60,000 nt of DNA from Tubulanus polymorphus (Eukaryota; Nemertea; Palaeonemertea; Tubulaniformes; Tubulanidae), in NCBI RefSeq assembly GCF_964204645.1, contig NC_134029.1:16512450-16572449 (forward strand). Direction: 5' to 3'. The translations under genes and the position numbers were made by a program. A model generated the notes under the pieces. That model made no database searches, was not told the origin of the DNA, and worked only from the letters and a program-made list of their open reading frames with translations. Below are positions 6,124 to 57,229 of the stretch, piece by piece (the stretch's first letter is position 1; the number at the start of each line of letters is the position of its first letter).

Positions 6124-7392
6124 TAGCCCACTTGGGACTTTAGTTCCAGCGGGCTATTGCGTTCACTTTTCGTCCATTCGTTCGTTGTAGCGTCCGTCCG
6201 TAGACGGAATCCAGTTATTTTGGGAAGTTTTGAAGACGCTTCAAGGTAACGTCTTGATATTTGGGTTACACATGTATCTACCCTAGACACATCTTCAGCC
6301 CAAAAACTGCCCCTATCAGAATCAAGATGGCCGACTGGCAGCCATTGTTGTTCGCCAAAATCAGCACTTTTTACACATTTTTGAACTTTTTGAAGGAAAT
6401 TTTGAAGACGCTTTGATCAATTACCTTGATCTTTCGGATATATGTGAATCCCCCCAGGGCCCATCAACATAACAAAAATTGGGTCGATCGGACTCAAGAT
6501 GGCCGTCCTATGACCTTTTTAGTGCCCAAAAATGTTAATTTTGGCCCAAATTCTGAGTCCTGTAGCTTCCTACTGGTTTATCATTTCTCATTGCAATTTA
6601 TGATGGGTATTCTTTGGAAAGTGATGTTTTATACCTGAGACAGGTATTTTTCATCAGCCAATTATGACGCAATTGGCGGCCATCTTGGTGTCACCAGTAC
6701 TCATTCGTAAGTGGGAAAAAGTTTTTCCACATAATATTGATACCTAAGCATATTTTGCTACCACAATCAATTAGAAAGTTGTAGCTCATAACGTGTTCTA
6801 TGATTGTGGTGAGTTTCATGGTAATTGGATTTTGTATATGGCCACCAGGGGGCGTTGAATAATACAATATCTTAGCATTTCTTTATTATATTCGTACCTA
6901 TGCATATTTTGTAACCACAATCAATTGCAAAGTTGTAGGTCATGACATCATCTATGATTGTTGCGAGTTTTAAGGACATAAGTTTATCTATATGGTCACC
7001 AGGGGGCGTTGAATAGTAGAATAACTTAGTATTTCCTTATTATATTGGTACCTAGGCATATTGTGTTACCATGATCAATTGCAAAGTTGTAGTTCATTAC
7101 ATGTTCTATGATTGTGGTGAGTTTCGAGGTCATTGGGTTTTGAATATGGTCACCAGGGGGCGTTGAATAGTAGAATGACTTAGTATTTCCATATTTAATT
7201 GGTAACGAGGCATATTTTGTTATCACAATCAATTACAAAATCGTAGCTGCTGACAGGTTCTATGATTGTGGTGAGTTTCAAGGTCATTGGTTTTTGTAAA
7301 TGGTCACCAGGGGGCGTTGAATGTTGAAATTGTTAGATTGTTGAGCATTTGAAACCACTTCCCAAGTGGGCATGGTTTCCCTGGACCCCTAG
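6124..7392. repeat. Full-length copy of a 1.27-kb interspersed repeat family
   Basis: Starts TAGCCCACTTGGGACTTTAG and ends CCCAAGTGGGCATGG...CCCCTAG, so the motif CCCACTTGGG occurs inverted near both ends. The internal part contains AGACGGAATCCAGTTATTTT, then AAGATGGCCG-type segments, then about four tandem subunits of roughly 120 bp, each ending CACCAGGGGGCGTTGAA. It is almost collinear with the copy at 51342-52609 (1,269 against 1,268 bp). There is no convincing coding frame. It is probably a non-autonomous transposon. Confidence 0.8.
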
Positions 7393-8928: not shown

Positions 8929-11900
8929 ATGAGAAGTCGAAGTAATTCTGGAGTGCGTTTGGATTATTTTTACAGAATTGTAAATAAAACAATTCTGAAA
9001 CATCAGGTAGACCTTGCCTCAACTTTTTACTTCACTCTTACTCGGTACTTGTGTCCCTGGCAAATTTAGTACATTCCCGCTCCATTTATACTTCTTGCTC
9101 ATTTCAGCATCCAGTTACGGGATTACTGCCAGCTACGCCTGATCACCCTCATGCCTGGGTTAGAGATAATGTATACTCCATTCTGGCAGTTTGGGGCTTA
9201 GCTCTAGCGTATAAGAAGAATGCCGATTTGGACGAAGACCGAGCGAAGGCTTACGAATTGACTCAAAGTGTTGTGAAATTAATGAGAGGTTTACTATTGT
9301 CGATGATGAAACAAGTTGATAAATTAGAGAAATTCAAATACACGCAAAGTAAAGAGGACTGTTTGCATGCAAAGTTTAGTGTTTCCACTGGAGCGACTGT
9401 GGTCGGAGACACGGAATGGGGACATTTACAAATAGATGCAACTTCATTATATCTACTACAACTAGCTCAAATGACGGCATCCGGCCATCAGATTGTGTAT
9501 ACTTTAGATGAAGTTTCATTCATTCAGAATTTAGTCTTCTACATAGAATCTGCTTACAGAATTCCGGTAAAAAAATGGAGATTTTCGATTGCCTACTTAC
9601 TTTTCCTTTTAAAACGATCATACAATTCACTGAATGTTTGTAGGATTATGGAATCTGGGAACGCGGAGATAAAACAAACCATGGACTACCTGAATTAAAT
9701 GCAAGTTCAATCGGAATGGCGAAGGTACAGTAGATTATTTCTTTAGGGATGGTTTCATATTGTTGCAATCAAATGTCTCTTAACTATCGAATAGATTTAG
9801 TTTTCCTTAGTCATAGTATAAATTTATATATGAGGGGCTAATTTTACAATGCTTTCCATTGAGTTTATTGGGTTTATACATTTATCTAGATCAGTCCTTT
9901 ATCATTGATGGAAAATTGTTTTTGCGGTAAATATCAATACTTTTAGCCCACTTGGGACTTGGGCTCGCTCTTCGTTCGTCCGTACTGTTCATTTGTTGGT
10001 TCGTCCGTAGGTGAAATCCCGTTATATTTAAGTTTTGAATATGCATCATTGGATTGTCTTGATATTTGGTTTGCACATGTATCTGCAGATACCTTAGACA
10101 CACTTGCAGCAAAAAATTGGCCCATTCAGGATCAAGATAACCGATTGGCGGCCATTGTTGTTCACCTAAATCGGTTCTATGAGGCATTTTCAAAAATCAA
10201 TGTGCCCATGTTTATGTCATGTGATTAACCACAACTATCCTCGTTTTCACGAACATTCGATTTGATTGCAAAATCAAATTGTTTTACGAAAACAGTACAA
10301 TTTGATCATTGCGCCATCTTGGTTTAATCATGTACGTCGGGGTAGTTGCTGCTACATGGCAGCTCAATACGGCTTTATCGATTTCTAACAACGCACGTTG
10401 ATTTTATTGGGATGTTTCGTAAGAATTCCCTTGCGGTAATGCTACATCATTCAAGTCTGAATATCGATACAAAGCCGTTGTCTTCATTGCAGGTGGCAAC
10501 CACCGCGATATTAAACTATCGGTACACAGGTGGAATGAAAATAATTTTTGTAAATTGTCAAAAGAATTTCGATAGGGTTTCCCATCAACGGCAAAAATTG
10601 TGATATTTGTTAGGCACAGCTCCAATAGATCCTTGTGATCTCTCAGTGTAGTCCACATTTTCTTGTTACATTTTCATCACTGTATATTATATATCAATAA
10701 AATGCTATAATGTAACAACCAAATGAAAATAAATACTACAATACAATTAACCTACAGTCATTGAAATGTGAAATTGTCAGATTTTCAAGTATTTCTGAAA
10801 TACTTGAAATTGTATCCCTGGAGCCCTTGTTGAATTGAAGTTATGTGGAAAATTGATTCTGGGTTATGACAAATTAAGGGCACTATGGGGCTACATCCAA
10901 AGTCCACAGAATGTCACGAGTGTTGATCACTTTGTAGAGAATACCCACATGTGAATTAATCTAGACCAGGTGTTAGGTTAACCATTTTCAATTGCAGGAT
11001 ACATGCACTGAAATACCATTATTTTTCTTTACATAACTATAGGCGGCACTTGAGGCTATAAATGAATTAGATGTATTTAGTTCAAGAGGAGGTCCAAATT
11101 CAGTAATACACGTATTAGCTGATGAACCACAACAATGTCAGGTAATAGTCCATTCTAATCATTTGTGTATAACAATATTGTTCATTACTGAATGAATTCA
11201 TATTTTTGTTTTTTTCTGTTTGTTGTTATTGTTGTTTTTCTTCATTCACAATCTTGTACTTTGGATTTATGATGAATAAATTGAAATTGAAATTATTCTC
11301 ATATTTTAGGCTGTGTTACAATCAATGTTACCCCGAGAGTCATCCTCAAAGGTATAGATATATTATTACAGTAGACTCCGCCCAACACAAATTAATTGGG
11401 ACCAGAAAAGAATCAACGCGCTAAGCGAAATTCGAGTTGGGGTTATTGATAAAATTGGCCAAAAATTATTAAGAAATCAAACCTCAATAAACCATTCTAT
11501 ATCGATCCTACGTGGATTGTTTGACAATCAGATGCTAGATAGAAATGAATTCCGTTTAAGTAAGGAGACAGAAAAAGATTTCAACATATGCCGAATTTCG
11601 ACTCAATAGGATTCTAGTTGAGAGGAGTCAACTGTATTAACATTTTGGCCGGGAGGCATTATTTGACTACTGACGAGATAAATTACTTTCTTTCAGGAAG
11701 TAGATAGTGCATTATTGAGTATAATTAGTTTCCCAGCATTTGCAGTGGACGATGAGGGGTTAATAGAACTGACCAGAAAGACTATTGTTGAGAAATTACA
11801 GGTAATGCACCTACCCTGTATCAGGGTATGCAAAATCACTTGTGATGCTCCTACCTTGTATCAGGGAATGATAGATTCAGGGAATGATAGAGTTAGTGGT

Positions 11901-23900: not shown

Positions 23901-26900
23901 TCTATTAAAATACGATAATGAATCGATTCATGTACGGCAGGCAAATAGCATTGTATGGACATCGTATTGATTGTATGCCTGTGGAATGCCTCACCCGTGG
24001 GGTTCAGGTCATTCATTGACACCTGCATTAAGAACTCTTAACAGGGATGATAATTTTCGGCCGTGCGGTGGATTTCCGCCTTTTCAATCAATTTTTATCA
24101 TTTCTCAGATCGATGCAAATCCGTTGAAAATGACTGGTTTACCAGCATCCTAAACAGGGTTCCTACAGCCCCTCAAATCCCTCAAAAACCCCTCAAATTC
24201 CAAAATCCATTTTTGAGGGTTAAAAATCCCTCAAATTCTGAGTTTTAGCCCTTGGCTCCTCAAAATCCCTTTTTTCATTGCCTGTGGTAGCAACTCTTAT
24301 GTAATGCAAACAGTTTTCTTTATTTCAGTTGTTATATTAGCTGAAGATGCAAGTATTCAAGAAATGTTAATGGCACATGGATTACATGTACAGACATTTG
24401 CCGAAGTTTCTCCTATCCAGGTTCATCCTGCCAGAGTACTTAGTTATTTGTATTCACATTTAGGTATACATCTCTTGAAAGTTCTTTTAATTCAATTCAT
24501 AATCTATTTTAGGGATATTCAATTTAATCAAATTTAGAACTCTCCCCCAAGTTAGTATCATGCCCTGTATTAATTAACCTTTATATTGCGGGATTAATTT
24601 TCTCAAAAGTCATCCCATCGCATACTGTAATTGCACAATCCAATTGCATACTGTAACTTCTAGATGATTTTTTTTCTCGAAACTCTTGGACTTCCTTGCC
24701 ACCTATACTAAGGAATCAGAACTAAGTAATTGGAACAGTATTGATTTAGAATGGGACTAGAATGTGTAGCAGATGATAAGTGGCATTCCTTATATCTATG
24801 ATTCCACATGTCTTTGTCGGTGCTGCAGGGCGTAGTTAGTTAAGATGATGAAAAGATAAATTGGTTTTTCTTTTCAGGTAAAAACGAGAAGCTGGGTTTA
24901 ACAGGTCGAGCCTCACATGATGTAGGCTTACTGTCTACTAGTAAATTATACATGATTGGAAATCAGATCTATGCGTTTTTACCTCAGGTATGTAGAAATT
25001 GGATTTATCTGTAGCGATGGAGTGCCTCAAAGAATTTTAAGTGCAATTCAGTTAAAATCATGAGTTTCACTATTTGATTGATTGATTATTTCAAAGAATT
25101 TATCACATCTGTAGTTAAAATAGAGATTCAATATTACTTTAGATGCAATCTTAACATACCAGTTTTACTCAAATTGTTCAAACTCTGGCCCCAGTTAAAT
25201 TTTGCTTCGAATTCATTCATTACAATCATTGAACTGATAGCATCAAATTGTAACCTATTACTGTGGAACTGAATTTAAATTAAAAAGATTGTGTTACCAT
25301 TAGAACCAAAATTGTTGTAAAACTGGGTGTCTTGTCAATTTTTAGTTTAATTTCTTGAAATGTTTAGTAGAATATTTTATTATATTCAGATGTTAGATTC
25401 GAAACAGTTTTTCCTGTCAATGGATAGTGATATTACAGCAGAATTATTTAAAACTGACGTCGCATATTTAAGAAACAACTGGAAAGTTCTTGGACGTCCT
25501 ACCATTATATTTCCTCTTACTACTGCTATTCTAGGTATAAAACCTAACATAGCTTTTTTACGTCATGTGTTGTGTTTTGCTTATCGCGCACTAGCACTCT
25601 TAGTGCTGACACTATCGTTAGCTGCATATGTTAGCACCCCTAGTAACAGTTCGTAGAGGCATGTATTAAAGCTTAATTGATTTATATCATCTACATGTGC
25701 TTTAGTTTGGTAATATAATATGCGGATAAACCCAGAGATCTTAGAACCATTAATTTGTGGAATCCAAAAAAAAACTCGGAAAACTTTATTTGACATGTAA
25801 GTTTTCTCTTGAAATAGTTGGGAAAGGGTAAAGGGAGTACATATAACATGCTAACTACTATACAGTGTATATAGTAACCAGGGTTTTGCATGTATGCTAA
25901 ATCCTGGTTACTGTACCCATAGTGGTAGATGCCATAAGCGCTCAATACTGTGTTAATCCGCATGACATTTTTATGAAAAGAATGAAGGGCACACTTTTCA
26001 GCCCACTTGGCCACTGCCGGCTATTGCATTCACTTTTCATTCATTGGTTTGTGGGTTTGTTCCATTGACGGAATCCAGTTATTGTGAGAAGTTTTGAAAA
26101 TGTTTCGATGGATACTCTTGATTCTTGGTTACAACATGTATGTATCTACGGTACTGCTTAGATTAAATTGACATCGTTCATGTTTATTTTCCGTTTCATT
26201 TACGTTAAAAAAAAAAAATCGATTGGCTTTTAGGAAAGAAATTAAATGCGTACCGTATATCGTTGTATCGATTTTAAAACGCATTCCAATTGCATGTATG
26301 ATGCACAGTTTTCATTAAGTTAATTCTAAGCAATACCGTACCCTTAACACATCTACAGCCAAAAACTGGCACAATGGAGAAGTTTTCAAGGGAAATTTTG
26401 AAGAGTCTTCTATCAACCGTCCTGATATTTCATATATGTATAGGCCTATATGTATCCTCTAAGGTCCATCATCATAGGAAAAAAATGGGTTGATCGGACG
26501 CAAGATGGCCATCTTGTGACCCTTTTGTGCAAATGATGGTTATTTTGGTCTCAATTCTGAGGCTTGTAGCTTCTTCATATGCCATTAATCATTGAAATTT
26601 GCATCAGATGGGTTTTTTAAACATACATTTCTTATGCATTAATTAGGCAACCTCATAGGCTCATCAGCCTTCATTTGATTTTTGACTTGCAGTCTTGCTA
26701 TTCATTTAGCACTGTCAGGACTTATCTCCCCACTTGGAATTGAGATTACCAAGTGTCTAGTTCTCAATGTATTGAATTGGAGTTAAAATTGAAATATAGC
26801 TGCAAAGCAGCGATAATGGGTTTTCTGCCGTGCAATATGCAAACCTTTTTAGGTAAGGGAACTGGCCAATACAAAGAATAATATTTTGATCACAACTGTA

Positions 26901-29900
26901 TTCGTTCTCCAGAGGCTGATATTGGATACTTTTCCACAAAGCTATGTCATGTGACAATTATCGGTTTACTTTATACACTGATAAGAATGCTGACGAACTT
27001 CTATACAAACCTGTTTCAATTCATTCTGCCTTGACCATACAACAACACTCAGTCTGTAGGCCTTATCCAAACTGGTTTTTATTCAAGCTCCTTTTGACAC
27101 ATATTCTATACAAGAAGCGATTGATAGAAACTGAGTAGGTATCAATGCAATATTTGTTAAGCATATACAGGCCTATACAAATCTCTTTAGACCACTGGGG
27201 TATGAACAAAGGGGTCGATCAAAAGCAAGATACTTGAGACCTGTTGGTATTGGGTTAGGCCTAAAGTAAAATCTGAGAAAATATGGTAGAAATCTGTTTA
27301 GTAGTTAAGGAGCTTTAGGCTTTTGGTGACTTTTGGGGCTAATCTCCTTGGAAAGGAGAAAAAAAGATGATATTTATTCAGAGGAAAGCAATAGGGTTGT
27401 CTGTGAAAACACAAAAAAATCTTTATTAAGCAAAATTTGTTGATGTATATGGTAATAATGCATATTTTATAACCACAGTTAATTGCACATTTGTAGTTAA
27501 TGACATGTGTTCTATGATAGTGGTGAGTTTTGAGGTCATTGGTGTTTGTATTTTTTGACAGGGGGCATTAAATATTGAAATCATGAGATGTTCAAGCATT
27601 TCACCAAGTGGGCATGTTGCGCTTATCCCTTGTATATAGAGAGTTTAAAATTTACATTAAGTTAACTATGATTCAGTCTAGCTTTATTGCTACCATTTTG
27701 AATTAATCAACATATTTTTATGTTCAGTTTCTCGATCCAGAGATCTATTACTTGAGTTTGGATATAGATTTTCTGATAGACCTTTTTCGCACGGATGTCG
27801 CTTCATTAAAACGTGATTGGAACATGCTAGGTAGACCTTTACTTATCATACCAGTCATGAGTTGGTACTTCGATTTTAAAGGTGAGGTAAACATTTTCAT
27901 TTCACGTAAACATTAAACTCTCTTAGATAGATACTAATTTGGCTAAAAATCTTTCAGCACTTTGTGAGATTCCATTATTAGCTCTGCTAACCAACTTGCT
28001 AGGCAACCATTTGTTTTCAGTGCCAGTGTTCTTCTCTGAAGCAAGCTATTGTGTTGATATTTCTACGGTTTATTGGGGCATCCATTCAAGGCATCCATCA
28101 CTGTCTACACATAGATGAAATCCAGTTTTTAGCTCACTTGGGACTTAATTCCCAGCAAGCTATCGCGTTCACTTATCATCCGTTCGTCCATCCATAGACA
28201 GAATCCAGTTATTTTGGGAAGTTTTAAAGACGCTTTTATTGATTGTCTTGATATTTGGTTTACACATATGCATCTACCCTAGATACATCGTCTGCCCCAA
28301 AACTGGCCTGATCACAATCAAGGTGGCTGACTGGAAGCCATTGTTGTTCATTTTTTTTGTACACATTTTTGAAGTTTTCAAGGGAAATTTTGAAGACACT
28401 TTCTTAATTATGTTGATCTTTCAGATTTAGTCGTATCTCCCAAGGTTCCATCTGCATGAGAAAAATTAGGTCGATCGGACTCAAAATGGCTGACCTGTGC
28501 CCAAAAAGGCCTAAATTCCGAGACCTATAACTTCCTAATGGTTTGCCATTTTTCATTGAAATTTGTGATGGGTATTGTTTGGGAAGGCATCTTAAGCATT
28601 TTAGATGGATTTTGCGATCAGTCAATTGATCATAAGTGGAAAAAGATGTCTTGAAGGAAATATCAACAGGTTTTCAGTTATAGTTTTGGCAATTAATTAT
28701 TATTAGCACTGTCATAGGATACATCTCTTCACATGGAATTGGGATCACCGAATTTATATTGGTACCTAGGCATATTTTGTTACCACGATTAAATTACAAA
28801 ATTGTAGCTCATCACATGTTCTATGATTTTGATGAGTTTCAAACTTAAGCGTTTAGGGTTTTCTGTTTCTTCACAGAAAACCCTATTGAGATTTGCCTGA
28901 TTATTAGGGTTTTCTGACTTTCGTCGAAAACCCTGTTGTAATTCTGTTGATTATTATTATTATTTGCATATTTTCCACTTTTTTTCATCACATACAATTC
29001 ATCTCTCGCATTCGACAACTAACAGCTACTTAGCGGAATGTAGAATTCTGATAGAAATATCACGCTCCGAATCTGCACGTGGATTCTATGTATATATTGT
29101 ACATCATACTTTAAAATTGAAATTGCTTACTGTCAGGCAACACCGGTGGAAATCCACTATAGGCGATCGACAATCGGCATTCCCGCACAACCGAGAAAAA
29201 AAACATATCTGGACTAGCAATTGATTCACGAAAAAACATACTCGGACTAAATATGGAATGCCAGTTATTAAGAATGGTATGTACGCACGCACGCGACTGA
29301 AAAACGCTAGATACATGCAGTTCAAATAGCTTCAGTTCGTTGTTTTGTTCGCGGATATTGATATTACAAATATTCAATAGGTTTTATCTATCTTGTATGC
29401 ATTTTTATATTGAATTGAATTGGTCTGGTCCATTAGGCCGTAGATGTTCCGCTTATGTTCTGCATTTGCGGTCTTACTGATTAGCGTCAGAAAATGTTAA
29501 ATTTTAGAAAATGAATAATTATTTATATAATTTGAGCCACGAATCAAGTATTTGGAAGTAATTTGACATGATAATTGAATTTCTGATACCCTATTTAGAA
29601 TTACAAAGTATTTCCTGTTCCTATCATTTGCGCAATATCACAAATTAAGCCTGTGCTCTTCAACGGATTCAATATGGTGTCTCTATGGGCAACAATCCCC
29701 GCCAAAAAGATGATGTTTTGTTTCATGTAGCGAAAAAGACAATTCCATGCCTCAAAGACATTTTCGTACCACGGCTCATGCACCCAAATGTCAGTAGATG
29801 TTGCCACTTATGTTTAAATTATGTCATCCTGGTTACCCAGAAATAATTCTTTCAGCGTTATTATTTTAGCTGTTTCGCCCGCAGTTTCAGCGTTACGATT

Positions 29901-32900
29901 AGCAGTTTGTGCGATCTTCTTAAAATGACGGATATTTGGGAAACCCGGAAATAGTTTGCCTGTTAACTGCTGGGAGATCCTTGTTTTCTTTCGGCCACAG
30001 CAGATCTCACAGCGCACCCATAGCGGAAGTAAACAAACACACGTGTCTGCTGTGGTGGATAAAAAACATTAGGTGTTGTCGATTTTCTATCCACCTGAGC
30101 AGGATCGTTCAATGTTGTGATGGATAGAAATTAGATTTCCTTTTGATTATTTAACCGTCCAGAGCAGGATCTAATGCAGAGTCGGTTGGTTTTTGTTCCA
30201 CAAACATATTCCAATTATTTCAAAAGTATTTTTTGTGCGTATTAGCAGGCAAACTCATTTCTTTCCTTTTGAGGGATTTTAAGCCGTCCGTTCGTTCGTC
30301 CATCCGTAGACGAAATCCAGTTATTTTGGGAAGTTTTAAAGACGCTTCAATGTAATGTCTTGATATTTGGGTTACACATGTCGATCGACATAACACTGGA
30401 ATAGGTTTGCAGTGATTAACAGTTCATTTCATTTACTCCTATGTGCTTGAAACTCTGGAACTGTTAACGAAAGACAAGTAACACAAGTGGAAAAAACATG
30501 CTTGAGTTATGCTTGATTCTCATATTCAAATTTAATTTAAATTCAAATTTATTTTATTACATCATATTTACAAAGCATATCATTGGTTCATACAGTAATA
30601 AAGATTAGGACAGAACTAATATTATTATAGAATTTTCAAAAAGGTAATTAATTTCTATAACTAAATGGACATTATTTTTCTAATAACTAAGTTCAAGAGT
30701 GACTCTCCCGTTTATTAAGAAACACACGGAACTAGTGGAATAGATTGATATTTACACACATGTTGCAGGCATAAATTGTTTATCAGTATAGAATTTGTAA
30801 TCCATAAAAGCCGAAATCAACATCGGCTCGAAACCCAGACAAAATCAACTCATAATTTATTGATTAAATCTACACTACAATATATGTATTTATTCAACTA
30901 TTTCAATAAAAAGATTAATTTCTTAAATCTATTCCAAATCATAATACGTTCTTATCTGTAAATTTACTAGATCTATCGACTCAGCAGGTGCTTAAGATGA
31001 GTTCTTAATAGGACAGATCCATTTTTTAAGCGTGGTGATAATACAGTATCATGATGATCCGTCTGTCCGTCCATCAACTTTTGCTTCAATTTACTACTAG
31101 TGCTACAGTTCTTTTCGAATCTTGACCAAACTTGGTATGAAGCTAATATGGGCCAAGGGCTAAAAAGTTATAGAGCCGTTTGTCAAATTTGATCTCAAGG
31201 GGGTGCTGTACGGGTGGCGCATGTAAAATCTTTAGATCGTTACTTGTCCTACAATTATTGTCCGATGTTGATGAAACTTAGTATGTAGATACTACAAGCC
31301 AAGGGCTAAAAAGTTATAGAGCTGTTTTCCCAATTTGATCTCTAGGGGGTGCCGTACGGGTGGTGCTTGTGTGACAGGTCGTAAATTCCTGCTTGAGGTT
31401 TCCCTGTGTCAGTTAATTGAGGTCCTGGAGATTAGAGAAGCGTACAAAACAGCTCGTCAAACATGCAGAGCAAAGAAGGACCTGTGACAACAGATATACT
31501 TGAATAAATAATCACGTTTAATTACTACAATTTCACTCCAGAGATGTCATCAGACCGATGACCAGTCTCAAACTGGATCTGTTGCCGCCAAAAATCATAA
31601 TACAAAACCGCACTGTAGATGGCAGCACCTAACAGCAAAACTTCCGGCCACACTTGTAAAATCTTTAAATCGCTTCTTTGTCCTACAATTATAATCCAAC
31701 CTAACGAGATTTGGTTTATAGATACTACAGGCCAAGGGAAAAATGTTATAGAGCCGTTTGCCCAATTTGACCTTTAGGGGGCGCTGTACAGGTCATGCTT
31801 GTAAAATCTTTAACCCTTTCAGTGCGTCTACACTGCAGTGCGGTGTATAAATCAGTGATAGATTTTGCGAGTACACCGCGGTGTATTGATGTAATTAGTA
31901 ATTGTCTCTCTTGAAAAATGGCAGCACCTGTCAAACATAGTGAAATACTAGTAACTAACGATACACAGCGCCGCGGTGTAGACGCACTATAGTGGTATTG
32001 TCGTTATTAAACACAGTAGGGTGGAATTTTTTTTAAATTTCAAATTATCTCTAGCACTATAGGGTATTAACTAGTCAGCACTGAAAGGGTTAAATCGCTA
32101 TTTGTCCTACAATTGTAGTCCGATGTTGACAAAACTTGGTATGTAGATACTATGGGCCAAGGGCTAAACTAGAGCGGTTATCAAACTTTAATCTCTAGGG
32201 GGCGCTGTACGGTGGCGCTTAGAAAATCTTTAAATTGCTACTTGTCCTACAATTATTATCCAATCTTGACAAAATTTGGTATGTCAATATTTTTGGCCAT
32301 GGGCTAAATGTTGCTGAGCCATTTTTCCCAATCTGATATCTAGTGGGCGCTGTACAGGTCACACTTGTAAAATCAAAATTGTAGCTCATGACATTTTCTA
32401 TCATTGTGGTGATTTTCAAGGTCATTGGTTTCAGTATACGTTCACCAGGGGGTGTTGAATATTGAGATTTTCTGATTGTTGAGCATTTCAAATGACTTCC
32501 CAAGTGGGCATGGTGTCCCTAGCAGGATTCGAATTTCAGAATTTTTCATCCACAGCAAGTTGCTTTCAGAAATGCTGTGGATGGTGGAAGCGATCCACAG
32601 CAAGTTAAGCTCTCACCACAGAAAGTGCCTATCTTGAAAACAATACCTGGTTGATTATGTATTCCATAAACATTGAAAACTAATCCTATTTGAGAGTTAT
32701 TTGGTTACTTGACTTAAACATTTAAATGTATATCAAATCAATTATAATATTGTCAACAATATTTGTAAAAATTTAACACTAAAAATGAAATCATTAGAGT
32801 TGGGTCGGTTCATAATGATATGTGATTGAAATTGAATATTGAATTGATTACTAAATTATTGAAAGAACTTATAACATAGTAATATTCTAATAATCTATAA

Positions 32901-35900
32901 TTTCTCAAAGATAGAATATGGCATTGTGTATAACTATTAAATTAAACTACTGAAGGAATGAATATTGGGCCTCCATGGGAGTTTTAAAAATTCAGATAAA
33001 AATTCTGTTACGGATGAAACTCCAGGGCCGAAATACCCAATTCTTTTTCGGATCCAAGCTCCAGGGTCGAACTAAAACCCATAAAACTAACGACGACACC
33101 AGACGTATAATATTACAAAGCACGTACATTTATTAAAGTACTGTGGCTGGGACTCACTGTGGTCAGTAAACAGATATTTATATAGGTACAGTTTATAGGG
33201 GTAAGTCAAGTATAAACACTGAATGATTCACACTTATAACAGACTGAAGTCGGTATACCGTATAAACACTATACATACCATAACTATTCAATAACTGGGT
33301 AACACAACTGGGTAACAATTCATGTTAATAGCAGTTGTTTTTGCATGGTGGCAGCACCGTATGGCATACAGTTTAGGCATCAGCCGCTGTAACTTTCAAT
33401 TTCATGTCAAACTTTTCAGAATTTTTACAGAATTTTGATTACAAAATCTGGTGTCAGTGATTGAAATTGTCAACGGCATTTTAAAGAATTTTGATAGACG
33501 GCATTTTTGAAGCCATCGGTACAAAGATACGTCAACGGCTATGTACTAATACATCGTCGACAAAAGCCGTCGATTGCCGTCGTGAAATTTGAACCCTGCC
33601 TAGACCCCTAGTTTCAGAAATATTGAGCACATGTCAATTGATTGTTTGGATATTTGCTTTGTACATGAGAGATTTTTCCATAAAAAGATCTGCAGTGTAT
33701 AAACTGGCCCAAACAAGGTTGTTTGATAGTTGATGTTCAGAACATGTCTTAGACATACGACAATAGATTTATGAAGTTTTCATGGGAAAAGTTTGAAAGT
33801 TTTTTCAATGCATTAGTCAATTGGTTGAAGTTTTAGTATGTACGTGTACACTCCTAGGGGGTAGCATCGCATGTTCGATGGATAAAATCAGAATCTTTGT
33901 GCAAAAATTGTAATTTTTAGTCTTAATTTGTAAGAATTTCCATCCAAATCAGTCTTATCCGTATTAAGATGTACTGGCAATTGTTTACTGTGTCTCCTAG
34001 CGGTAATATCATGTACTGAAAACATAGGTCAGTCTATGTCTCAAAGACTGCTATGATCTCATAATTGGGCTTCTAACAGGCAGTTGTCAATTGACATCTG
34101 TATGTAGCTTTCTGCTATTGCTTAATTTTGCTTTGCTTCTTTGCATGAAAGTATGAGTGAAATAACAAAAAATAACATACGATTATAAAACATGCATTAA
34201 ATTGATTTGATATACTGGTGCTTTATATACAGTTGATCCTGCTTGCCTAGTCCTCATGGGAAAGCAAACTCTGAAATGGTCAGAGTGACAATCATTCATC
34301 ATCACATGAATTGGAATAAGAAAATTCTACATCTTATCTTGTCTGAGACAAAGCGATAAGCAATTGGTACTGGCAAGCCGGGTCTTCTGATATAATCCAA
34401 ATGAAGCAATTCATCATTATGATTGTGATAAATGTATGTTTCAGATACAAATAAAGAATTACAACCTGCATTGGTAGCAACGATACAGAAACTACGGTCT
34501 GGATACATCAATGGTACAAGGTATCAAATCCTGATTATTGTTAAACTACAGGGGTCAGTTTTATAGACTTGTTTTATCTTTAACCTGTGGTTGATATAAT
34601 TGAAAATGAATTGACTTAATCTCAGAGGTTAAGATAATACCCGTTTATATTACTGGTCCTTGAGCTATAGATCAGATTGTTGTAGACACATCTCTAGAAG
34701 GCAGTTACATTATATTCTAGGGTGCAGTTAGGTAATTTGATGGAGTTTATAAGTACATCCTGTGTCACCAAGCTTACATTTTTGCCAGGTTTAGACTCAG
34801 TCGAAGGTAAATATTTCAAATTTCAATTTATTCAAATACATAAATACTGGTACCGTAACTCATGCAGAAAACTTCGTTTAAAGGTCTGATAAATACAGAA
34901 AACCCCTATAAAACTGTCAGTGAAACATTAGAGAATGAAAAGTAGATATATGTTTATACATATATATTGTTTTTGGAACCCTTTTTGGTGGAAAACTGCC
35001 CTTTCAATTGATACTATGATCGTAAGTCACTCCTGGATCCACCCCTGCCCTTATTCAAGTTAAAACCTTTTCAGTGTGGATTCTGCAAATAAATGTCTAC
35101 TGATTTGAATTTGTTATCATCTAAACAATGTTTAAACTACTATATCAAATATTTTAGCATGCTTCACTTTCCTTTCTTATCTATCTTGATATTACTACAG
35201 ATCATGAAGCAGGTAAATCTATGTAACTCTGTGTAGGTGGATGGATTTCACTGTTTTCAGTAACATAGTTGGGAGGGCCCCCCACCCCCCTCCCCCGTGT
35301 ATAAGTAATGCCTAGGGGGGCTATGATCAAGCAAAGCAGCACTTCATATAGTGCATACGATAAGAGGGTGGAAACAATCAAGATACCAGTATGAAATGTG
35401 TGGCCCTATGAATTCCTATTCGATTTTTGAAAAGATGAATTTTGACAAATATAACCCACAGAATGCATCCATTTGCCACATCCGATAGTGCCCCTTTGGG
35501 GCTCTTGTTACATTTTTTTGGTCGTTTTTTACATGTAAATAGTCCGAAAGTTTATTGTAGTTTGTATTGTTATGTATTTTTAATTTCCGGGCTCTTAATT
35601 CATAAATGGTTTAAGATAACTTTTCGGAAATTTTTCGGATTGGTTACCCTAGACACCATGAGTGACTGATTAGACTTCAGCGGTTTTTTTTGTATTTTCA
35701 CTTCTGGGCTCTAACTCATAAACGGTTTAAGTTAACTAGGTGAAATTTGATGGATGAGACTATGGGTAACTGCTCAGATTTCAGGTCCTCTAGGTCATGG
35801 TCACCGGAAGCTGTTTTTGTGATTTTCATTTCCTGCCTTCATAAACGGGTTGACATACGCTTGGTGTGTATTTTACACTCAGGTGTTTCACCTGATTTTG

Positions 35901-38900: not shown

Positions 38901-41900
38901 AGATTCCTCATTAATGGTATCAGACCCTATGCATCATGATATCCAATCAGCGACTGTGTTTTTAGGCACACCTGCTGCAAGGGTCCTGTAGCTGTCGGGA
39001 ATTTATCATCAATTCCCCCAATTCACGTTACACTTGGATGGCGTGATACTCCGGTCCCAATGTTTGTGCACGCGCACTGACGACAGGTACTCCACCCCCT
39101 TTACCAAAAGAAAGGTTAAGGATGCTCCACCGTTTGCGGTTACAGGGATTGATTATCCTGGTCCGTTTGAGTTCCTAGCTGTTATAAATCCGGTATCATT
39201 GGTAAAGTCGTATATTATTCTGTTCACATGTGCAGTAAGCAGGTGTATTCATCTCGTGTTGGTTATTAATTTGTCATTACCGACATTTGTGTTAAGTAAA
39301 GTTTCCGTTGTTTCTACAGTCGCAGATCCTGTCCGTCGTGCTGTATTTCGGACATTTCAATCCGCTGAAAAGCATCTGAAAGAGTTGTTTACTTCGCCCG
39401 AGTTAGAGCGAAATTTAGCTGATAGAGGGTGTGAATGGAAATTCATTCCGCGTTGTGGTCCATGGTTTGGCAGATTTTACAAGAGACACATCGGACTTAC
39501 AAAACGTGCATTAAAGAAAACTCTCAATTGTTCAAAGTTGGGATTTACTGAACTGCAAACAGTCGTTACCGAAATAGAATGTACGTTAAATAATCTCCGT
39601 TAACTGCGTTATTTGACGGAGTTGCAGATCCAGTGCCGATTACACCGTCGCAGTTATTCATGGGTCGTTTTATCAGTGGACGATCCAGATTATGTTAAAC
39701 AGAGCGATGTTGTGATCTGTGTGAAAAAACGTGGTTGTTTATATGCCGATTTTCAAAAGCGTTGGCTTGAAGAGTATCTTACTGCGCTATGGGAGAGGCA
39801 TGGCATGCCGCAAAGTGCTTTCATGGGAGAATGCCCATGTAAGATCGGTGATGTTGTTTTGGTCCTCTCGGAAAAAGATTGTTTTCAGTGGAAACTTGAG
39901 GTGATAACCTAAGGGTCCGGATGGTTTGATTTGCGTTGCGGGAATTAAGACCAGTTACAGGTTTTCGAACAGACCCATCAATTGTCTTTATCCGTTGGTG
40001 ATATTGTGTTGTGATGTTAGGGAACTTTTAGAATCATCCAAAGAAATGGAAAATTTGGTTCCTGTTAGACCAGCTCCTCGGCTAGCTGCTATAAAGGCCT
40101 GCAGTTAATGAAGGAACAGTCAGAGTTCTTGTGATCAGTGATTTGTAAAAGACACTTTTATTTTAAACGTAACATTGATGTGGCTGGAGTTTGTCGGGAC
40201 TTCATCATTTATAATATAATTCCTCCAATTCCCGTAACCGTACACTTGGATGGCGTGATACTCCGGTCCCAATGTTTGCGCACGCGCACTGACGACAGGG
40301 CAGTGCATGTTAGTTGAGAAACAAGTTGTAATGGCGTCTAAAATAAAATGTGTCGGGTTCATGTGAACCGCTGCTGTTCTCGTTAATTTCTTGTGTCTAC
40401 CACAGTAGCAGTTGCACTTGACGCTACGAATGGTGGGCCTTGTGACGTCGCGTCACAAGTGGGGTGTAGATCAGTTGCTATGTAAATGTCAGTGATGGTG
40501 TGCAGCTACGGTAGTCTATTATTAGTGTTAAGAGCATGTGGGTCGATGCAATCCGCGATTCCGATTTCTGATTTCATGAAGCCTACGGAAAACACGATTT
40601 CTAAACTTGAACTCATTACCATTGTAGATTCGAATCCCTATATTTCTGGGAATATAACACACCTCACTGGTTGCATGAAGCACTCTGGAAATATTTATCC
40701 CTTTCATTTTTCATTTTTATTAGATGAAGTTGCTAATGTCAGTCGTAAGTTTAAAGAATGATCAATTTTCCTTATTTTGGAGCATTTTCATGAATTCTAC
40801 TAATACGCATTCTACGTGTTACATCTAAAAACTCACATAGACCACTAGGGTCTTCAAAATTGTTGTAATTTTTGGAGGTAGATGATTTAGCTGCTTTTTT
40901 AGCCCACACGGGGCAAAGTCTTTTTTGTGTTCACTCAAAGTTATTTCAGGAAGTTTTAAAAAAGCTTTGATGGATTTTCTTGATATTTGGTTACAAATAT
41001 ACAACCCAATCAGTATCAAGATGGCATGATCACAAATCAGGGATTTTTGCACGGATTTTGCTATCTTAGGGCAGATAGCTATGGCGCTCAGTTTTCGTTG
41101 TACTGTAATTCCGTCTGTCTATCGCAATTTCGGGGTTTTTTCAACATGCTTTGATGGAAGATCTTAGTTTTAACTTAGTAATCTTGATATTTGATATTGT
41201 AGTTAACTATAAGACATAGCTCATTTAGGATTTACTCTGTCTTAAGTTCTCTCCACCAGTCACAATGAATAATGAAATAACAGGGTATTTCTGTCATATC
41301 GGTACCTAGACATATTTTGTAACTACATTCATAATAATTGCTGCAAAGTTGTATCTTATGACATATTTTGTGATTGGTTATTCATTATGCCCCGGCTCAA
41401 CTTAAGTTGAGTTGGCCACCAGGGGGCCGACATAAAAAACGATGTTAACAGCCTTGAGGCCGCAATTGTAGGATATCACTTGGGCCAGAACCCTATTTTA
41501 TAATTGGGTTGATTCGATTCAAATTATGGCCACCAGGGGGCCAACATGAAAACGACATTAACCGCCTAGAGGCTGCAATTGGTGACGGATTCATTTCAAA
41601 CTTGGTAAACAAGTAGGATATCACTTCGGCCAGAACCCTATTTAAAATTGGGTTGATTCAATTCAAATTATTGCCACCAGGGGGCCGACATGAAGACCAA
41701 CGTTTACAGCCTAGAGGCCTCAATTGTTGACCGATTGTTTTCAAACTTGGTACACAAGTAGGGTATCACTTGGCCCCGAAATCCTATCTAAAGTTGGGTC
41801 AATTCGATTCAAATAATGGCCACCAGGGGGCCGATATGAAAAATTACGTTAATAGCCTAGAGGCCGCAATTGTTGACCGATTAATTTTAAACTTGGTGCA

Positions 41901-44900: not shown

Positions 44901-47900
44901 TATTTCTTTGAAAATATAAAATAGTTTCCCTGCCGCGCCTACCTGTACCCTACGAAATGTATATTTTTGGTCTTATTTGACTACAAAATAATTCTTTGCG
45001 AAAGATGAAATACAATATAGAACTTTTAAGTCACGAATTAAAAAGATTTTTCAAGCAATGCCCTTACCCCAAACAACCTCTAGCTTTCAAGGTAAACCAC
45101 GCTTTGCCCATGGGCAATTTATTTTGTAAGGCAATCAGCTAGTTGTTTATTCGAGTCGATCCAACGCAGCTCTTTCAGCGCACCATTTTCAATAACTTCT
45201 TTTATAGCAGCTATATCGATTCTGAAACGTTTCTCAGTAACTGCTTTGTTGGAAACGACTGCTTCACACAGCGATTTACTATCAGTGAGGCATATCACAT
45301 CAACTAAACCAAACTCCTTTCTGCCAAACATAAGCTCCGTGTACATCAAGCATAAAGGTAAGGCGGCATCACCGCATCCGCTAAAGCTAACGTCTCACCC
45401 GCAAGGGTACTTCGAACAACCCTACTTTGAGCTCCAACATATTGGTGACATATTTCCATCCTCACCCTCGAAACAAATAAAATAGCCACCTTGAGTATCG
45501 CCATCAGATAAATTCCCTTATGATGCATCACAATAAACCAACATTCTAGGATTCTTCAGATACTGAAATTGTATACTGACATTTTCAGCTTTAGCCCTTT
45601 TAATCACTTTATTCAATGCCAAAATATCCAACTTTTCCTTTCTTTATTGAGGATGCAAGCTGGCAGACATCGAATATTAAATCTAGTCTTGTTTGACGGC
45701 CAAGCCACAGAAGCTGACCTACTTTTTTTCTCATCGCTGTCTTCTCATTTTCAGTAAGACATTTTGGTTTTGTGCCCGGACACTACTAATTTTTACGAAT
45801 TCTAAATTTTGCTTATAGAAATCCTGATCGAGAGTCGTGTCATCTTGCGATATGTTTAAATGCATACCAACATATCTGAAAGCCTGTACATCTTCCCTTC
45901 CAACGATAAATTTCTCTCGAATCTTGCAGATAACAGTTTTTTCAAATGATTCATCACCTCCCCATAGAAAATCATCAACATGACATAATAGTATGCCAGT
46001 AAGTAGACCATTCTCATCAAGCCAGTAGAAAACAGCTGGGTCATATTGACATATCCTTGCTCCCATACCAGACAAGGTGGATTTTACCTTCTTGTACCAA
46101 CACAGAGAAGCATCACTGAGACCATAAACGCATTTTTTTAACTGCCATAAATAACCATTTTCGCAGGCTTCTTTAGGGGGTACCAAAAAGACTTGTCTGT
46201 CAAAGTTGTCTCCTTGGAGAAAAGCACTTTTAATGTCCATTGACTTGGGCAGCCATTTTTTTTTTAGCAAGGATAGTTAGCACTATTTTCTGCGACTCAC
46301 TGGAACATGTAGGTGAATCTCTTTCAGCGGACAGTTCTTTTTCTTCGAACCCTCTCGCTACCAGTCTAGCTTTAGGTACCAGAACACCCTCTTTTTCTTT
46401 CATATTACAGATCCATCTGTAGATACGGCACGCTGACCACTATCTTTGACTCTTTTGTACACTCCATGGTCTTTCCAGCTTTTTAGCTCTGCTTGTTTAG
46501 CTTGGTCAAAAATCCCATATTGCGCTACTAATACATCGGCATCGTCAATCGTTGGTTCAAGAACTTGAAGATTATCTAACTGATTTATATCCACTGAGCT
46601 CTGATATCTCTAGCCATCTGAATTTACTGTTGCAATATTGTACAGTCTTTATATTGTCCAGTTTTCTTTCCAGCTCTGCCTATGATGGTCCCTACCTGTG
46701 TGTTTCCATTTACTTCAAATTTAATCTGTTGACCCTTTTTTAAGGTTGGCTTCTCATTTTCAACCACTCCCTGATTCAAAGCGTCATCAGAACTGTTCAC
46801 ATTTCCGACCGTGTTGGGCAAAGTCTGGTTCTCAGATAACATATTATCAACATCGTTGTTGATTTTCTAGTCATCACTGTCATTATTTGACTGTACAACT
46901 GCCGGTTCGGTTTCATTTCTTACGGAAAACTTATCTTGTTGTTGATAACGTTTGTCATCATAAGGTTGATGATTAATCTCAGATACAGCTTTTTTTAACC
47001 GACATGTGTGCACTAATGAGCTGACCACCATGTCGAACAAATACCACAACTCCGTCCTGGCCAATAACTCAAGCAGGTCCTTTCCATGTTGACTAGTCAG
47101 GCCTTTTATAGAACACCTTGTCACCACTTCTATAAATTTCATCATTGTGAGTTCGAACCTGTTTTCTAAGGGCCCTTCTTATCTTCTCAGAACATTCAGC
47201 CTGAGTAAATGCCTGTCTTGCAGCAAACAGAGTCGTAATGTAATAGTGACCTGACGATGATCTCTAGGGTGAGATCGAAACGTCGTGTCTTTTAAATATT
47301 TTAGATTTAATAAATAAAATCTGGTTTTTAAATTCTTTTAATCTGTAAATAGTGGGATTTTATCTTATTATCCGTTCACCACGTTTGAGTGTGGTCATCG
47401 TTCTATAGAGTCGTAATGTGTTTTGCAATACCATTAGCTGTGGTACTTCCTTCTAATGCAGGCAGTTTGTCACATAAGACTGATGGTAAGTTGGGATTAC
47501 AGCCGAAAACTAGTTGATGTGCACTATACCCATGAATATTACTGAGTGTATTCTTCGCCATTAGAGCCCAAGCTAAAGCTGTCTCCCAGTCGCAATCTCT
47601 ATCGTCCTTGATTTTTGTAACAATTTCAGTTAGTGTCCTATTGTGCCTTTCACAAATTCCGTTACTCCACGGACTACAAGCTGCGGTAGTCAATATTTCG
47701 ATGCCAAACTGTCCTCCCATTTCAATCATTTCTTCATTCATAAACTCACCACCATTGTCACTGAACAATCTTTTTGGTGGGCCGAAAACGCTAATCCAGT
47801 GCTTAATGAATTCATCCATAACATCATGCGCTCTTTTAGTCTTTAAAATAGCACCTGCATTTAATCCAGTGCTTAATGAATTCATCCATAACATCATGCG

Positions 47901-50900
47901 CTCTTTTAGTCTTTAAAATAGCACCTGCACTGTATCGCGTGTAGAGCTCAATGATATGAAGATACCATAATGATTCTCCTAACTGATGTAGATCTACTGC
48001 AACTGTCTCATTCCAATCTGAGGCCATGGGTAGCGAGACAGTTGGACGACTTAATGTTCTCTTGTACTTTTCACATAAATGACACTGAGTAAGGACTCTT
48101 TCTAGAGCTTGTCGAGTTTCTGCATCACTGATTCCTGCTTTCTCTAGAAGATTTTTCAACTTTTCTAAAGAAGCATGTCCAAATTGACGATGGAGTTTTA
48201 ACATAGCCCTCTCTTTACTCTTCACATCGTCAGCAGTCTGAAGGATCAATACCGCTTCACTACAAAAATCATCGTTATAATATCTATCACTCCAGATATT
48301 AACACAGTAATGTCCCATAGAAGTTTGCTCCAATTTGATATTCCTCCCGAACATATGGACTTCATCATTACCTACATTTATTATGGCATCTGCTTCTTTT
48401 AATGACCCTTTGCTAAGGAGCAAAGGAAGATCTACATCAACGACGTCTGTAGATAAACGGCACGTATGACCATCAAAGTTTGCAGGGATGATAACATTCT
48501 CAGACGAAAGTACTTTCCTACCGTAACCAAAACAGAAAAACCTGTTAGAAGATGTGACGACAATCTTATCCCTTTCGGAAGGTGATAATGAGTCAACATA
48601 ATCATGGAGCCACTTCTTACCGCACACAGTTCTAGTACATCCAGTATCAATAACAGCGGCACCCAGAGCCTCTAGCATGAAAATTGTGTTGTCTTGTCCA
48701 GAGCTCTTGGCGAAAAGGACAACCTAATCACAAACCTCTTCGTGTTGCATAGCATGCATTTCATCTGCCTTATGCGGACAGTTCTTAGCCCAGTGAAAAG
48801 TACTGCCACAAACAGCACATCTAGTTCTTCGTACAGATCTATCTATGGGATTCGTGCCCCTCGGCCCATTCGCGCTAGTTACACTAGAGCGTCTAGTCTG
48901 AAAGCCTGCACGGCCTCGTGAGCCAAATCCAGATCTATGTTGAGCACCACGATTTTCCTGATTTGCATACAATGTATCATGTTCTTCACCTTTGACCTTC
49001 ACATCAGCGTCGAAATTCATCATAATTGTCATCAGTAGACTGTTTGACTTTTGCCTCTTCAAATATCCGCTTGAGAGCAGATTTCATACTTGCTAATGTG
49101 AGGGTAGGTGAAGCTGTGAGAGCAAGCTGCTTCTCTTTTTGTTGTAATCCAGCTCCATCCAAGATTTTAAATGCCAACACAGCTTCCGGTAACTGCATGT
49201 TGCGTTTAACACACCGGTTGTTGAGCCTTTCAAATTCGATTATATAATCATTAATTGACATACCTTCAGTCCGTTCAAATTTCTCAAAAGCTGTGTGTAT
49301 TGAGTATGCAATATCCGTGTCAGCAGTCTTAAAAACCGTATCCAATTTTGTAAGCAAAGATTTCATCCAGCATTAAACGATGCCGTTGACAGCTCAAGAG
49401 CAGCAGCCCTCGCTTGTCCTTGTAATGTCAACGTCACTGCTAAAGCCTGCTTTTTGGCATCTAAATCCGTAACTAGTTTCCATATCTCAATCTCATCTTT
49501 CCACGATTGGTAATCCGTCGCTTTATCCAACAGCAGTGGATTTTTGTAGGTGGACTGGCGGATTTTTTTTTTTTTTAACACAACGCGGCGCCACCGGACG
49601 GTAAAAATGATGGCCACGTGCAACAAATTTTATTTAAACGAACGAACCGATGCAAACCTCAGCTACTCACACAAAACATAGCAACGATCTTTCTTTCGTT
49701 TCCTTTTTGTTTTTTTAACAAAACGATGAATAAAGCCCTTATTCCACTTTCGCACATTGAAACAAACTCCGACGACTTCGACGAATTGCCATCCACAGCC
49801 GCTCGTCTCGATGTCAGCAGCCACAGTAACTCACCGCACTACCAATCAAATTTAGTTGTTTGCTCTGCTACCATTTTGATAATCACCTTAATTTCCTGTA
49901 AGGCCTCTTATACGCATTGTAAAAGACTAATTCCTAAACACACATTCCACGCACACACGCAACCGAGCTCGGTATCCCCTCGCTGTACCGTCAATTTTTT
50001 CTAACCCCAAAAAGCCCAAGTCCACATATCTAACAGAAACAGTCAGAAGTCTGCCAATGCTGCGTGTTTGCAAGGACCGTGTACAGAGTACTCCATTGAA
50101 GCAGCCCGATTCAATACTCATTAGTACATATGATGATAGGGTGATGTCTTCCGAAGGTCATTGATTGCATGTTGCACTTAATGCAATTTTTGATATACTT
50201 ATATCTTAGCTGGAATAAGATCATCTCAAAGTAGACCTGATAGCTTAATCAGTTTCTTAGTACATGCATTACACATGGACCCCTTTGATGTATGTACGCC
50301 CCGCTGGGCATGAATCATAGCACTTTCCCATTCAAGATAACTTGCCCTGCACCTCCTGCCTCCCCGGGTTTCTTTTTACATTTAAATCTGTGATTTGCAT
50401 GAGTTGAATATTTTTTGAATCCAAACTAATTTCATTGCTTTAGATTTTGATAATGTATGAATGTTAAACTGAAAGAAACTGATAGGTCTAACTGATGAAT
50501 TGAGTTTATTTTACAGGTATACGCATAATGCAGACAATAAATAGAATGGGCCCTTCAATATCGCGTGCACGGTTACCAACAAATTCTCCTAAAAGTCCCA
50601 CATCCAGCTGGCACCGGCTCTCAAACTCAATACGCAAACAGAGCATAGCAGGGATAGTTAAACGTACGCGTTCTATTGCTATAGATGGAGAGGAAGATTT
50701 CGGTAAATATAACTCTTTCCACCCTTACTTGTTTAATGGATCATTCCTTTATTCATTTATTATGTATGCACTAAGTCTCAGTAACTTTCTGTTAGCTCTT
50801 GGTGGCACAAATTGTAACAAATGGTTATAAACAGCTGGTATTTTGTCATAAGAAGAGAAATAGGTGTTGGAATTGATATGGCAAATTTTGTCCATCAGCT

Positions 50901-53900
50901 CTTGGCCGTTTGGAAGTGCTGGGAGAAAATGTCCAAAATTTCAATTAATTTTTCTCCATTCTACTAATTGATGCTTTACCTTGTTTCATGACATCACAGG
51001 GAAAGCATTTCAGAATGGCATCACTTGGAAATGCTTACTACACAGTGCATCATGATTTCATCTTCATTAGCTGTATATGTTATTGCAAATCCAAGAACAA
51101 ATTGATTTTTCTGCTCAAAAGAAAAATGTACTCAGTTGATCCTACTGGACCCATGGTCCTTAATTAAAATGTTCAGATGTGACATATTTAATCTAGTTCA
51201 ACATTTCATCCTGTATCCTACCCATACAGATATGTACACATTTGAACTGACCCCTTCGTGCATACGTAATAAGGAATGATTACCACGATGATCATCTCCT
51301 GGTTCTTTGGTAGCTGTTACTGTATTACCGTAAGCTGTTATTAGCCCACTTGGGACTTTAGTCCCAGCGGGCTATTGCGTTCACTTTTCGTCCGTCGTCG
51401 GTCCGTTCGTCCGTCCGTAGACGGAATCCAGTTATTTTGGGAAGTTTTGAAGACGCTTCAAGATAATGTCTTGATATTTGGGTTACACATGTATCTACCC
51501 TAGACACATCTTCAGCCCAAAAACTGGCCCTGTCAGATTCAAGATGGCCGACTGGCAGCCATTGTTGTTCGCCAAAATCAGCACTTTTTACACATTTTTG
51601 AACTTTTTGAGGGAAATTTTGAAGACGCTTTGATCAATTACCTTGATCTTTCGGATATATGTGAATTCCCCCAGGGCCCATCAGCATAACAAAAATTGGG
51701 TCGATCGGACTCAAGATGGCCGTCCTATGACCTTTTTAGTGCCCAAAAATGTTGATTTTGGCCCAAATTCTGAGTCCTGTAGCTTCCTACTGGTTTATCA
51801 TTTCTCATTGCAATTTGTGATGGGTATTCTTTGGAAAGGGATGTTTTATACCTGAGACAGGTATTTTTCATCAGCCAATTATGACGCAATTGGCGGCCAT
51901 CTTGGTGTCAGCAGTACTCATTCGTAAGTGGGAAAAAGTTTTTCCACATTATATTGATACCTAAGTGTATTTTGTTACCACAATCATTTTGGAAGTTGTA
52001 GCTCATAACGTGTTCTATGATTATGGTGAGTTTCAAGGTCATTGGTTTTTGTATATGGCCACCAGGGGGCGTTGAAAAATGCAATATCTTAGTATTTCTA
52101 TATTATATTCGTATCAATGCATATTTTGTAACCACAATCAATTGCAAAGTTGTAGCTCATGACATCATCTATGATTGTGGCAAGTTTTAAGGCCATTAGT
52201 TATTCTATATGGTCACCAGGGGGCGTTGAATAGTAGAATAACTTAGTATTTCCTTATTATATTGGTACCTAGGCATATTGTGTTACCATGATCAATTACA
52301 AAAATATAGTTCGTGACATGTTCTATGATTGTGATGAGTTTCAAGGTCATTGGGTTTTGAATATGGTCACCAGGGGGCGTTGAATAGTAGAATAACTTAG
52401 TATTTCCATATTAAAGTGGTAACGAGGCATATTTTGTTATCACAATCAATTACAAAATCGTAGCTGCTGACATGTTCTATGATTGTGGTGAGTTTCAAGG
52501 TCATTGGATTCTGTATATGGTCACCAGGGGGCGTTGAATATTGAAATTGTTAGATTGTTGAGCATTTGGAACCACTTCCCAAGTGGGCATGGTGTCCCTG
52601 GACCCCTAGTTTTTATACTTTTAACACTTTTCTTACTGCGAAGTGCTGCCTCATAACCTGGTCTTGCAAATTGGTTAGAACATGAAATGCAACTTTTTAT
52701 GGTTGCAGTAAAATCCTAAAATAGTTTTTCAATTTTAAATTTGCATTCAACCAAATTCTGGAAAGGCATCTAAACTACATATGTTTCCGATGCAATGGGT
52801 GTTGTTTCTCAAGAACACTATGAATATGACATGAAGCACATTTTTTAAATTATCGCTTCGATATTACTTATTTACATCAACTGATACAGTTACTTTTCAT
52901 ATATAATGAATTTTGTGAGCAGAACGCTTAGAAAAATGCTACAAGTAAATACAATGTTGATGATAAAAAATGTGGGATATGAATGACACAATTGATTTTA
53001 ATTAGGTAATATCAAGGGCTTCCGCATGATTTAGAAATTTAGAATTGATTTTATTTTGTTGTGGTGGATAAATTACATCTATCTATATGAAATACATTAT
53101 TTCAACAATTTCAGAGAATCCATTTACCCCTCGAGAGTTAGGTTTGTTTTAGAATTTATGTGTGTGATGTAGTGACTGTTTGTGCTTGAGTAGAATCTGA
53201 TACATAATGTAGAGTAAATTTATTATAACTTTCTAGTGTAGCTAATTTTTCCATCTACTCCTTAACCACAAGATCCCTCAAAATATTGTTTGATCCACCC
53301 CTCCTCTATTTTCACTCAATTATTGTTGTGAACTTCTTTTTCTGCAGCCACATTTATTCTAGACAGAATTCTAGAAGTGCAAAATTCTAGGGACATGGAT
53401 TGTGAGTAGGCTCATCACAAGGCTGGATCAAATTATACCACTGCTTCAGGCACTAATCAAAGAATTATTAATGGCAGAATGATTATGAGAGAAAACCGCA
53501 ATCAAAAGAAAAACTATGAGAGTTATCTTTATATTTCAATTATTCAGAGATGAGATTACCGCGGAAATCGGTATTGAAAAATTCAATTTTCCAAATAGTC
53601 CAATAATGATGTAAAAGTATAGGGGGGGGGTGATCATGATCTCACTCAACTGGACCGGTGCGATTGGTAATTGGGTTAACCGTAAAAGCGTTCAGCGCCT
53701 TTTTTACTTACCGTCGCGTATTGCATTTCAATGCATATTCATTCCAACACTGTTTTTGTATCTACTATGATGTATGTATTTCATCGATCGGTTACGGACA
53801 GAAGCGCGCGCGGCAACAGTAGTAATGTATGTAAGCCCAGGGTTCAAATTTCAGAAATTGTCATCCGCAGCAAGTTGCTTTCAGAAATACTGTGGATGGT

Positions 53901-57151: not shown

Positions 57152-57229
57152 GTAGGTGCTCTTCATAGATCAAGATTGACTTAAACTCCCAAGGCTGGGA
57201 CTAAGACCGTCTCCAAGGAACCTGGCTCA

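Follow-up and report, generated by a model that had tools for sequence, protein, structure and literature searches.

A tandem pair of homologous and probably mutually exclusive exons in the phosphorylase kinase alpha (PHKA) gene of the ribbon worm Tubulanus polymorphus

Homologous neighbouring exons of equal phase and similar length, one of which is chosen, are familiar from muscle myosin heavy chain and Dscam. In phosphorylase kinase, vertebrate PHKB carries a mutually exclusive homologous pair, exons 26 and 27, with a tissue-dependent choice; no paper on these exons was found in the literature searched. Public annotation of PHKA in Drosophila and oysters includes isoforms that each carry one version of a slot between unchanged flanks. 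Here, a comparable arrangement is described in a stretch of 60,000 nt from the palaeonemertean ribbon worm Tubulanus polymorphus (contig NC_134029.1, positions 16,512,450 to 16,572,449; the window), which holds the gene for the large regulatory subunit, PHKA (phosphorylase kinase alpha), of the enzyme that turns on the breakdown of glycogen. Two homologous exons, 14a and 14b, occupy one slot in this gene, and they are likely to be tandem mutually exclusive exons that tune the coupling between the alpha subunit and the kinase.

The pair shares with myosin heavy chain and Dscam the homology, neighbouring position, equal phase and similar length of the exons, but lies in a metabolic kinase subunit, and no docking/selector structure was found in the intron pairs scanned. 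It resembles PHKB exons 26 and 27 in being a homologous exon pair in a regulatory subunit of phosphorylase kinase, whereas the PHKB exons belong to the beta subunit and to its C-terminal part. The Drosophila and oyster isoforms concern the same gene and slot and have one version each, but their sequence versions are different, number four in oysters, and are known as database isoforms. As a type of alternative splicing the Tubulanus pair is unremarkable, but its location is unexpected and undescribed in the literature searched. No description of this pair was found among the papers listed there, which were judged mostly by their titles and the openings of their abstracts. An earlier, sequence-only reading of this DNA knew of no description of the pair, and no paper has come to light, but versions of the slot are already present in the public annotation of other protostomes. 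The part of PMC3228551 that was available names the X-linked fly gene for phosphorylase kinase gamma, and CG7766 is absent from its main text. Neither PHKA, PHKB nor phosphorylase occurs in PMC9741552, PMC5740500 or PMC9013439, and neither CG7766 nor phosphorylase in PMC3303723. CG7766 is mentioned in PMC12452063, of which the available text contains neither 'splic' nor 'exon'.

Exon 14a (25390..25534, 145 nt, 48 residues) and exon 14b (27728..27881, 154 nt, 51 residues) are on the forward strand, separated by an intron of 2193 nt (25535..27727). They lie between exon 13 (24878..24987), which ends in phase 0 (...AFLPQ), and exon 15 (34445..34520); both flanking exons are modelled as constitutive. 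Each exon of the pair is open, bounded by AG and GT, and runs from phase 0 to phase 1. The chain of exons 1 to 13, one member of the pair and exons 15 and 16 is open over 626 codons with 14a and over 629 codons with 14b. Inclusion of 14a followed by 14b, of 14b followed by 14a, or of neither shifts the frame and leads into stops. Being neighbouring, homologous, similar in length and equal in phase, the two exons have the sequence properties expected of a mutually exclusive pair. The coordinates, lengths, phases and count of identical residues given by the sequence-only reading were all reproduced, and its argument that the frame demands exactly one of the pair is borne out by the modelled chains.

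Over 42 aligned residues, 14a and 14b are identical at 20, and their local score of 116 compares with a mean of 21.4 (standard deviation 4.2, maximum 48) in 2000 shuffles. The alignment and the chains together uphold the proposal that two homologous PHKA exons share one slot and exchange about 50 residues of the regulatory subunit. Splice sites were scored with a matrix derived from the 15 other modelled exons of the gene, over positions 24988-34444 (∼9.5 kb). The donors of 14a and 14b rank 4th and 5th among 549 GT, and their acceptors 20th and 12th among 491 AG, in agreement with the good splice sites that had been claimed for both. A hold-out exon profile built from 46 rows of relatives, neither Tubulanus exon included, gives 68.2 bits for 14a and 67.9 bits for 14b. 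No third copy of the exon was found on either strand of the window, where the next best stretch scores 8.9 bits in one profile scan and 9.3 bits in the six-frame scan with the hold-out profile. Each exon, in its context, aligns to residues 466-619 of human PHKA1. Over the stretch of the exon pair, the match to PHKA1 (E 4e-42) against that to PHKB (8e-18) places the gene in PHKA. A protein search with the 14b piece returned a public model, P0003, named 'putative phosphorylase b kinase regulatory subunit alpha isoform X3 [Tubulanus polymorphus]', which contains 14b with 51/51 residues (100%) identical.

By alignment and profile, the slot corresponds to residues 524-571 of human PHKA1, directly before a Lys and a Tyr in exon 15 that match human Lys588 and Tyr593. 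In the available parts of a human cryo-electron microscopy study [PMC10978961], Tyr593 in D2-alpha docks into the kinase N-lobe, Lys588 forms an ion pair with the kinase, and D2-alpha also contacts D2-beta. It is proposed there that ADP on the beta subunit acts via D2-beta and D2-alpha, loosening the kinase. Because it is located between D1 and Lys588/Tyr593, the slot would belong to D2-alpha. The Lys and Tyr beside the slot are invariant in 32 aligned relatives, and among the 16 exons the slot shows the lowest conservation, with a mean pairwise identity of 0.42 (31 rows; next exon 0.51) that is partly due to the mixing of different versions in the alignment.

The arrangement suggests how the pair may work. 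Exactly one of 14a and 14b would be spliced between exons 13 and 15 in Tubulanus RNA, and double or zero inclusion would shift the frame and probably lead to removal as nonsense RNA. The swapped piece would lie in D2-alpha, a domain that in the human enzyme meets D2 of the beta subunit with one face and the N-lobe of the kinase with the other. Since the Lys and Tyr are invariant and the slot is the least conserved exon, the swap would keep the kinase-gripping residues of exon 15 and alter the scaffold just before them. With Lys and Tyr unchanged while this scaffold differs, the change would probably shift the grip of alpha on the kinase and its release by ADP or Ca2+. That the swap tunes the Ca2+ or ADP response of the kinase is quite possible and is put forward tentatively. 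One PHKA gene could then give two kinds of holoenzyme, used differently by tissue or state, whereas vertebrates have two PHKA genes (muscle and liver). Although phosphorylase kinase is among the classic enzymes of signalling, tissue-adapted forms from one invertebrate PHKA gene are unaddressed in the literature searched. A swap beside the kinase-gripping residues of D2-alpha would be a natural experiment on the proposed relay from beta-D2 through alpha-D2 to the kinase, which the two Drosophila and four oyster versions would allow to be tested directly. The slot also looks like an old hotspot of exon duplication within a metabolic gene, and could serve to study the origin and persistence of exclusive splicing.

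Several ways of enforcing exclusion were considered. Steric hindrance between 14a and 14b was rejected because the intron of 2193 nt is too long. Incompatibility between U2 and U12 splice sites was also rejected, as exons 13, 14a, 14b and 15 have donors and acceptors that look U2-type by the usual criterion. Docking/selector duplexes were sought between intron 13 and three other intron stretches (3 of 5 planned pairs), and none went beyond 8 shuffles each. The Rbfox-type motif TGCATG occurs 39 times in the window against 41.8 expected, and shows no enrichment. Removal of wrong products through the frame thus appears to be the only enforcing step to which the sequence points, and a regulated choice by splicing factors is assumed.

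The same slot was compared in the best 120 of 7993 proteins found with P0003 and the best 120 of 7930 found with Drosophila PHKA. Both lists are ranked by best score and redundant, and counts from them are not frequencies; 7 of the 120 proteins in the P0003 list lack the anchor pattern and were examined separately. In the Drosophila list, 102/120 proteins carry a FADLSRFY... or FVDLSRFY... version, and the other 18 carry a distinct HIDYEEYY... version with unchanged flanks. These 18 rows come from 15 Drosophila species, each of which is also listed with the first version; both listed rows of D. melanogaster show the first version. Among 13 listed isoforms of Crassostrea angulata, V1 is found in 10 and V2, V3 and V4 in one each, and Magallana gigas has V1 in 9 of 12 listed isoforms and again V2, V3 and V4 in one each. 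Two versions were found in Biomphalaria (6 and 1 of 7 listed) and in Mytilus edulis (P0011 and P0012). Ten 'lgn' proteins carry oyster V2 (8 proteins) or V4 (2 proteins); their contigs, of 3.6-4.4 kb, are probably assembled transcripts, being so short yet holding a frame of 1,200 residues. The Tubulanus pair belongs to a wider pattern that covers nemerteans, molluscs and arthropods and is not confined to this worm. Because fruit flies, oysters, mussels and snails have alternative versions as well, exchange of the slot looks like an ancient means by which animals tune phosphorylase kinase. In the Lineus longissimus protein P0004, 23 residues (VSNSATPWLRRRY...) separate the core of the slot from ALVATIQKL, compared with 8 in Tubulanus; an extra exon or a displaced donor may account for this.

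Exons 14a and 14b are identical at just 73/144 nucleotides, and their 200-base flanks show no similarity above shuffles; the duplication is therefore old, not recent. An exon tree of 48 columns was built from 48 rows hand-picked from the collected proteins, one human row among them. It is weakly resolved, with 24/45 inner branches open and the bootstrap not settled. In the best tree, 14a groups with the Lineus exon (95/87) and 14b with the Capitella exon (91/84, not starred). The latter two have 25/47 residues in common and similar odd ends (PVSRWNLDF in Capitella). Raw pairwise scores, however, rank a scallop exon closest to 14b and Owenia closest to 14a, and the best eight of 14b do not include Capitella. 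The second Drosophila version groups with spider and horseshoe-crab versions (99/98), and a bivalve-plus-gastropod version forms a further group (94/91). The arthropod 'F' group (3 rows) is weak, at 76/0 without Priapulus. From these comparisons an old origin of the pair is favoured, and only favoured because a tree that forces 14a and 14b into one group is not rejected (p-AU 0.217) and a search with 14b alone found only P0003.

A more speculative possibility, somewhat doubtful as it stands, is that the slot was already an exclusive pair in the protostome ancestor, or became one once before the nemertean/annelid split and once before the insect/chelicerate split, and was kept, with at least four versions in oysters. 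It would then be an exchangeable coupling piece of D2-alpha that sets the release of the kinase by beta-bound ADP and by Ca2+/calmodulin. An origin in the protostome ancestor implies retention for more than 500 million years, and splicing would take the part that separate muscle and liver PHKA genes play in vertebrates.

The pair may instead stem from a duplication of its own within nemerteans or within the lineage of Tubulanus, the fly and mollusc pairs being separate products of a slot prone to duplication. This has a real chance of being correct, albeit one that we would not expect to prevail: it agrees with the constrained tree and with the several versions that molluscs have of their own, but the best tree places 14a and 14b with exons of different relatives, and their low nucleotide identity and dissimilar flanks speak against a recent event.

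Apart from the mixing of versions in the conservation values and the outcome of the docking scan, some further results weigh against the use of 14a and 14b as a mutually exclusive pair. No Tubulanus record with 14a was seen, P0003 representing a cluster of 7 sequences of which one was inspected. The search with the 14b piece returned no relative besides P0003 (1/33 candidates at E up to 10), and 14b therefore lacks a close counterpart at that sensitivity. The exon profile finds one copy of the slot in 238 of the 240 listed proteins and two copies in the remaining 2 (P0033 and P0046). The first of these results fits the view that 14a is a decaying or unused copy, so that transcripts use 14b alone and a past duplication has left the pair as a remnant. 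We regard this as improbable, since 14a has an open frame and splice sites on a par with those of 14b, matches the profile of relatives equally well, and groups with an exon used by a listed Lineus isoform. It is also nearer than 14b to the exons of human PHKA1, Owenia and Ptychodera, with the reverse for Capitella. The two-copy proteins are what could favour a reading in which a shifted splice site allows cassette use or inclusion of both exons and lengthens the D2 domain, but this is very improbable, as plain double inclusion in Tubulanus hits stops and both models look like gene-prediction errors that fused two neighbouring exons: in the Nephila spider model the second copy is without its start, and in that of the sea slug Elysia crispata (P0046, residues 525-715) ∼95 unrelated residues separate the two versions. 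Such fusions would suggest that the alternative exons adjoin in the Nephila and Elysia genomes too.

Mutually exclusive use of 14a and 14b remains the preferred explanation, and further copies were sought in the 267.8-Mb genome. A six-frame search with 14b, at E up to 10, found two places, 14b itself and 14a (E 5.3e-8), and six-frame searches at the same threshold found no copies elsewhere, nor any spliced retrocopies from which splice forms could have been read. A query of exons 12 to 16 gave six matches within the window and a single one in a PHKB-like gene (L014; G000:C3:6805000-6814999, minus strand), and the window locus looks like the sole PHKA gene of T. polymorphus. In the PHKB-like gene, the exon profile alone detects a more distant counterpart of the slot (27.9 bits). 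The same duplication in PHKB was rejected, as the counterpart occurs once, in two pieces, in 30 kb of the PHKB-like locus; being in two pieces, it is probably split by an intron.

Exons 1 to 16 of the gene were modelled at 8929-34806 on the forward strand, from exon 1 with the start codon (8929..9006) to exon 16, modelled as constitutive (34721..34806). The glucoamylase-like N-terminal domain PF00723 is matched in exon 2. P0003 carries PF00723 and the C-terminal PHKA/B domain PF19292, with most of its C-terminal part outside the window. It also matches the window beyond exon 16, at 50516-50710 and 56931-57152, and no window match over 85% identity was listed for the remainder of the protein. 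Exon 12 (24329..24463) has two possible starts 15 nt apart (24314 and 24329), and the upstream acceptor, which is used in P0003, adds five residues, VFFIS.

In the intron before the 50.5-kb exon, open stretches are present at 39000-39900, which we take to resemble a retroelement integrase. The GC skew is -0.18 and -0.14 within 45001-51000 and between -0.02 and +0.11 in the other 3-kb bins; insertion of an element, or a gene encoded by the opposite strand, may explain this drop. Related translated stretches recur at 6417-6635, 28149-28427, 30273-30401 and 51345-51852, in or before introns of the gene, and point to an interspersed repeat.

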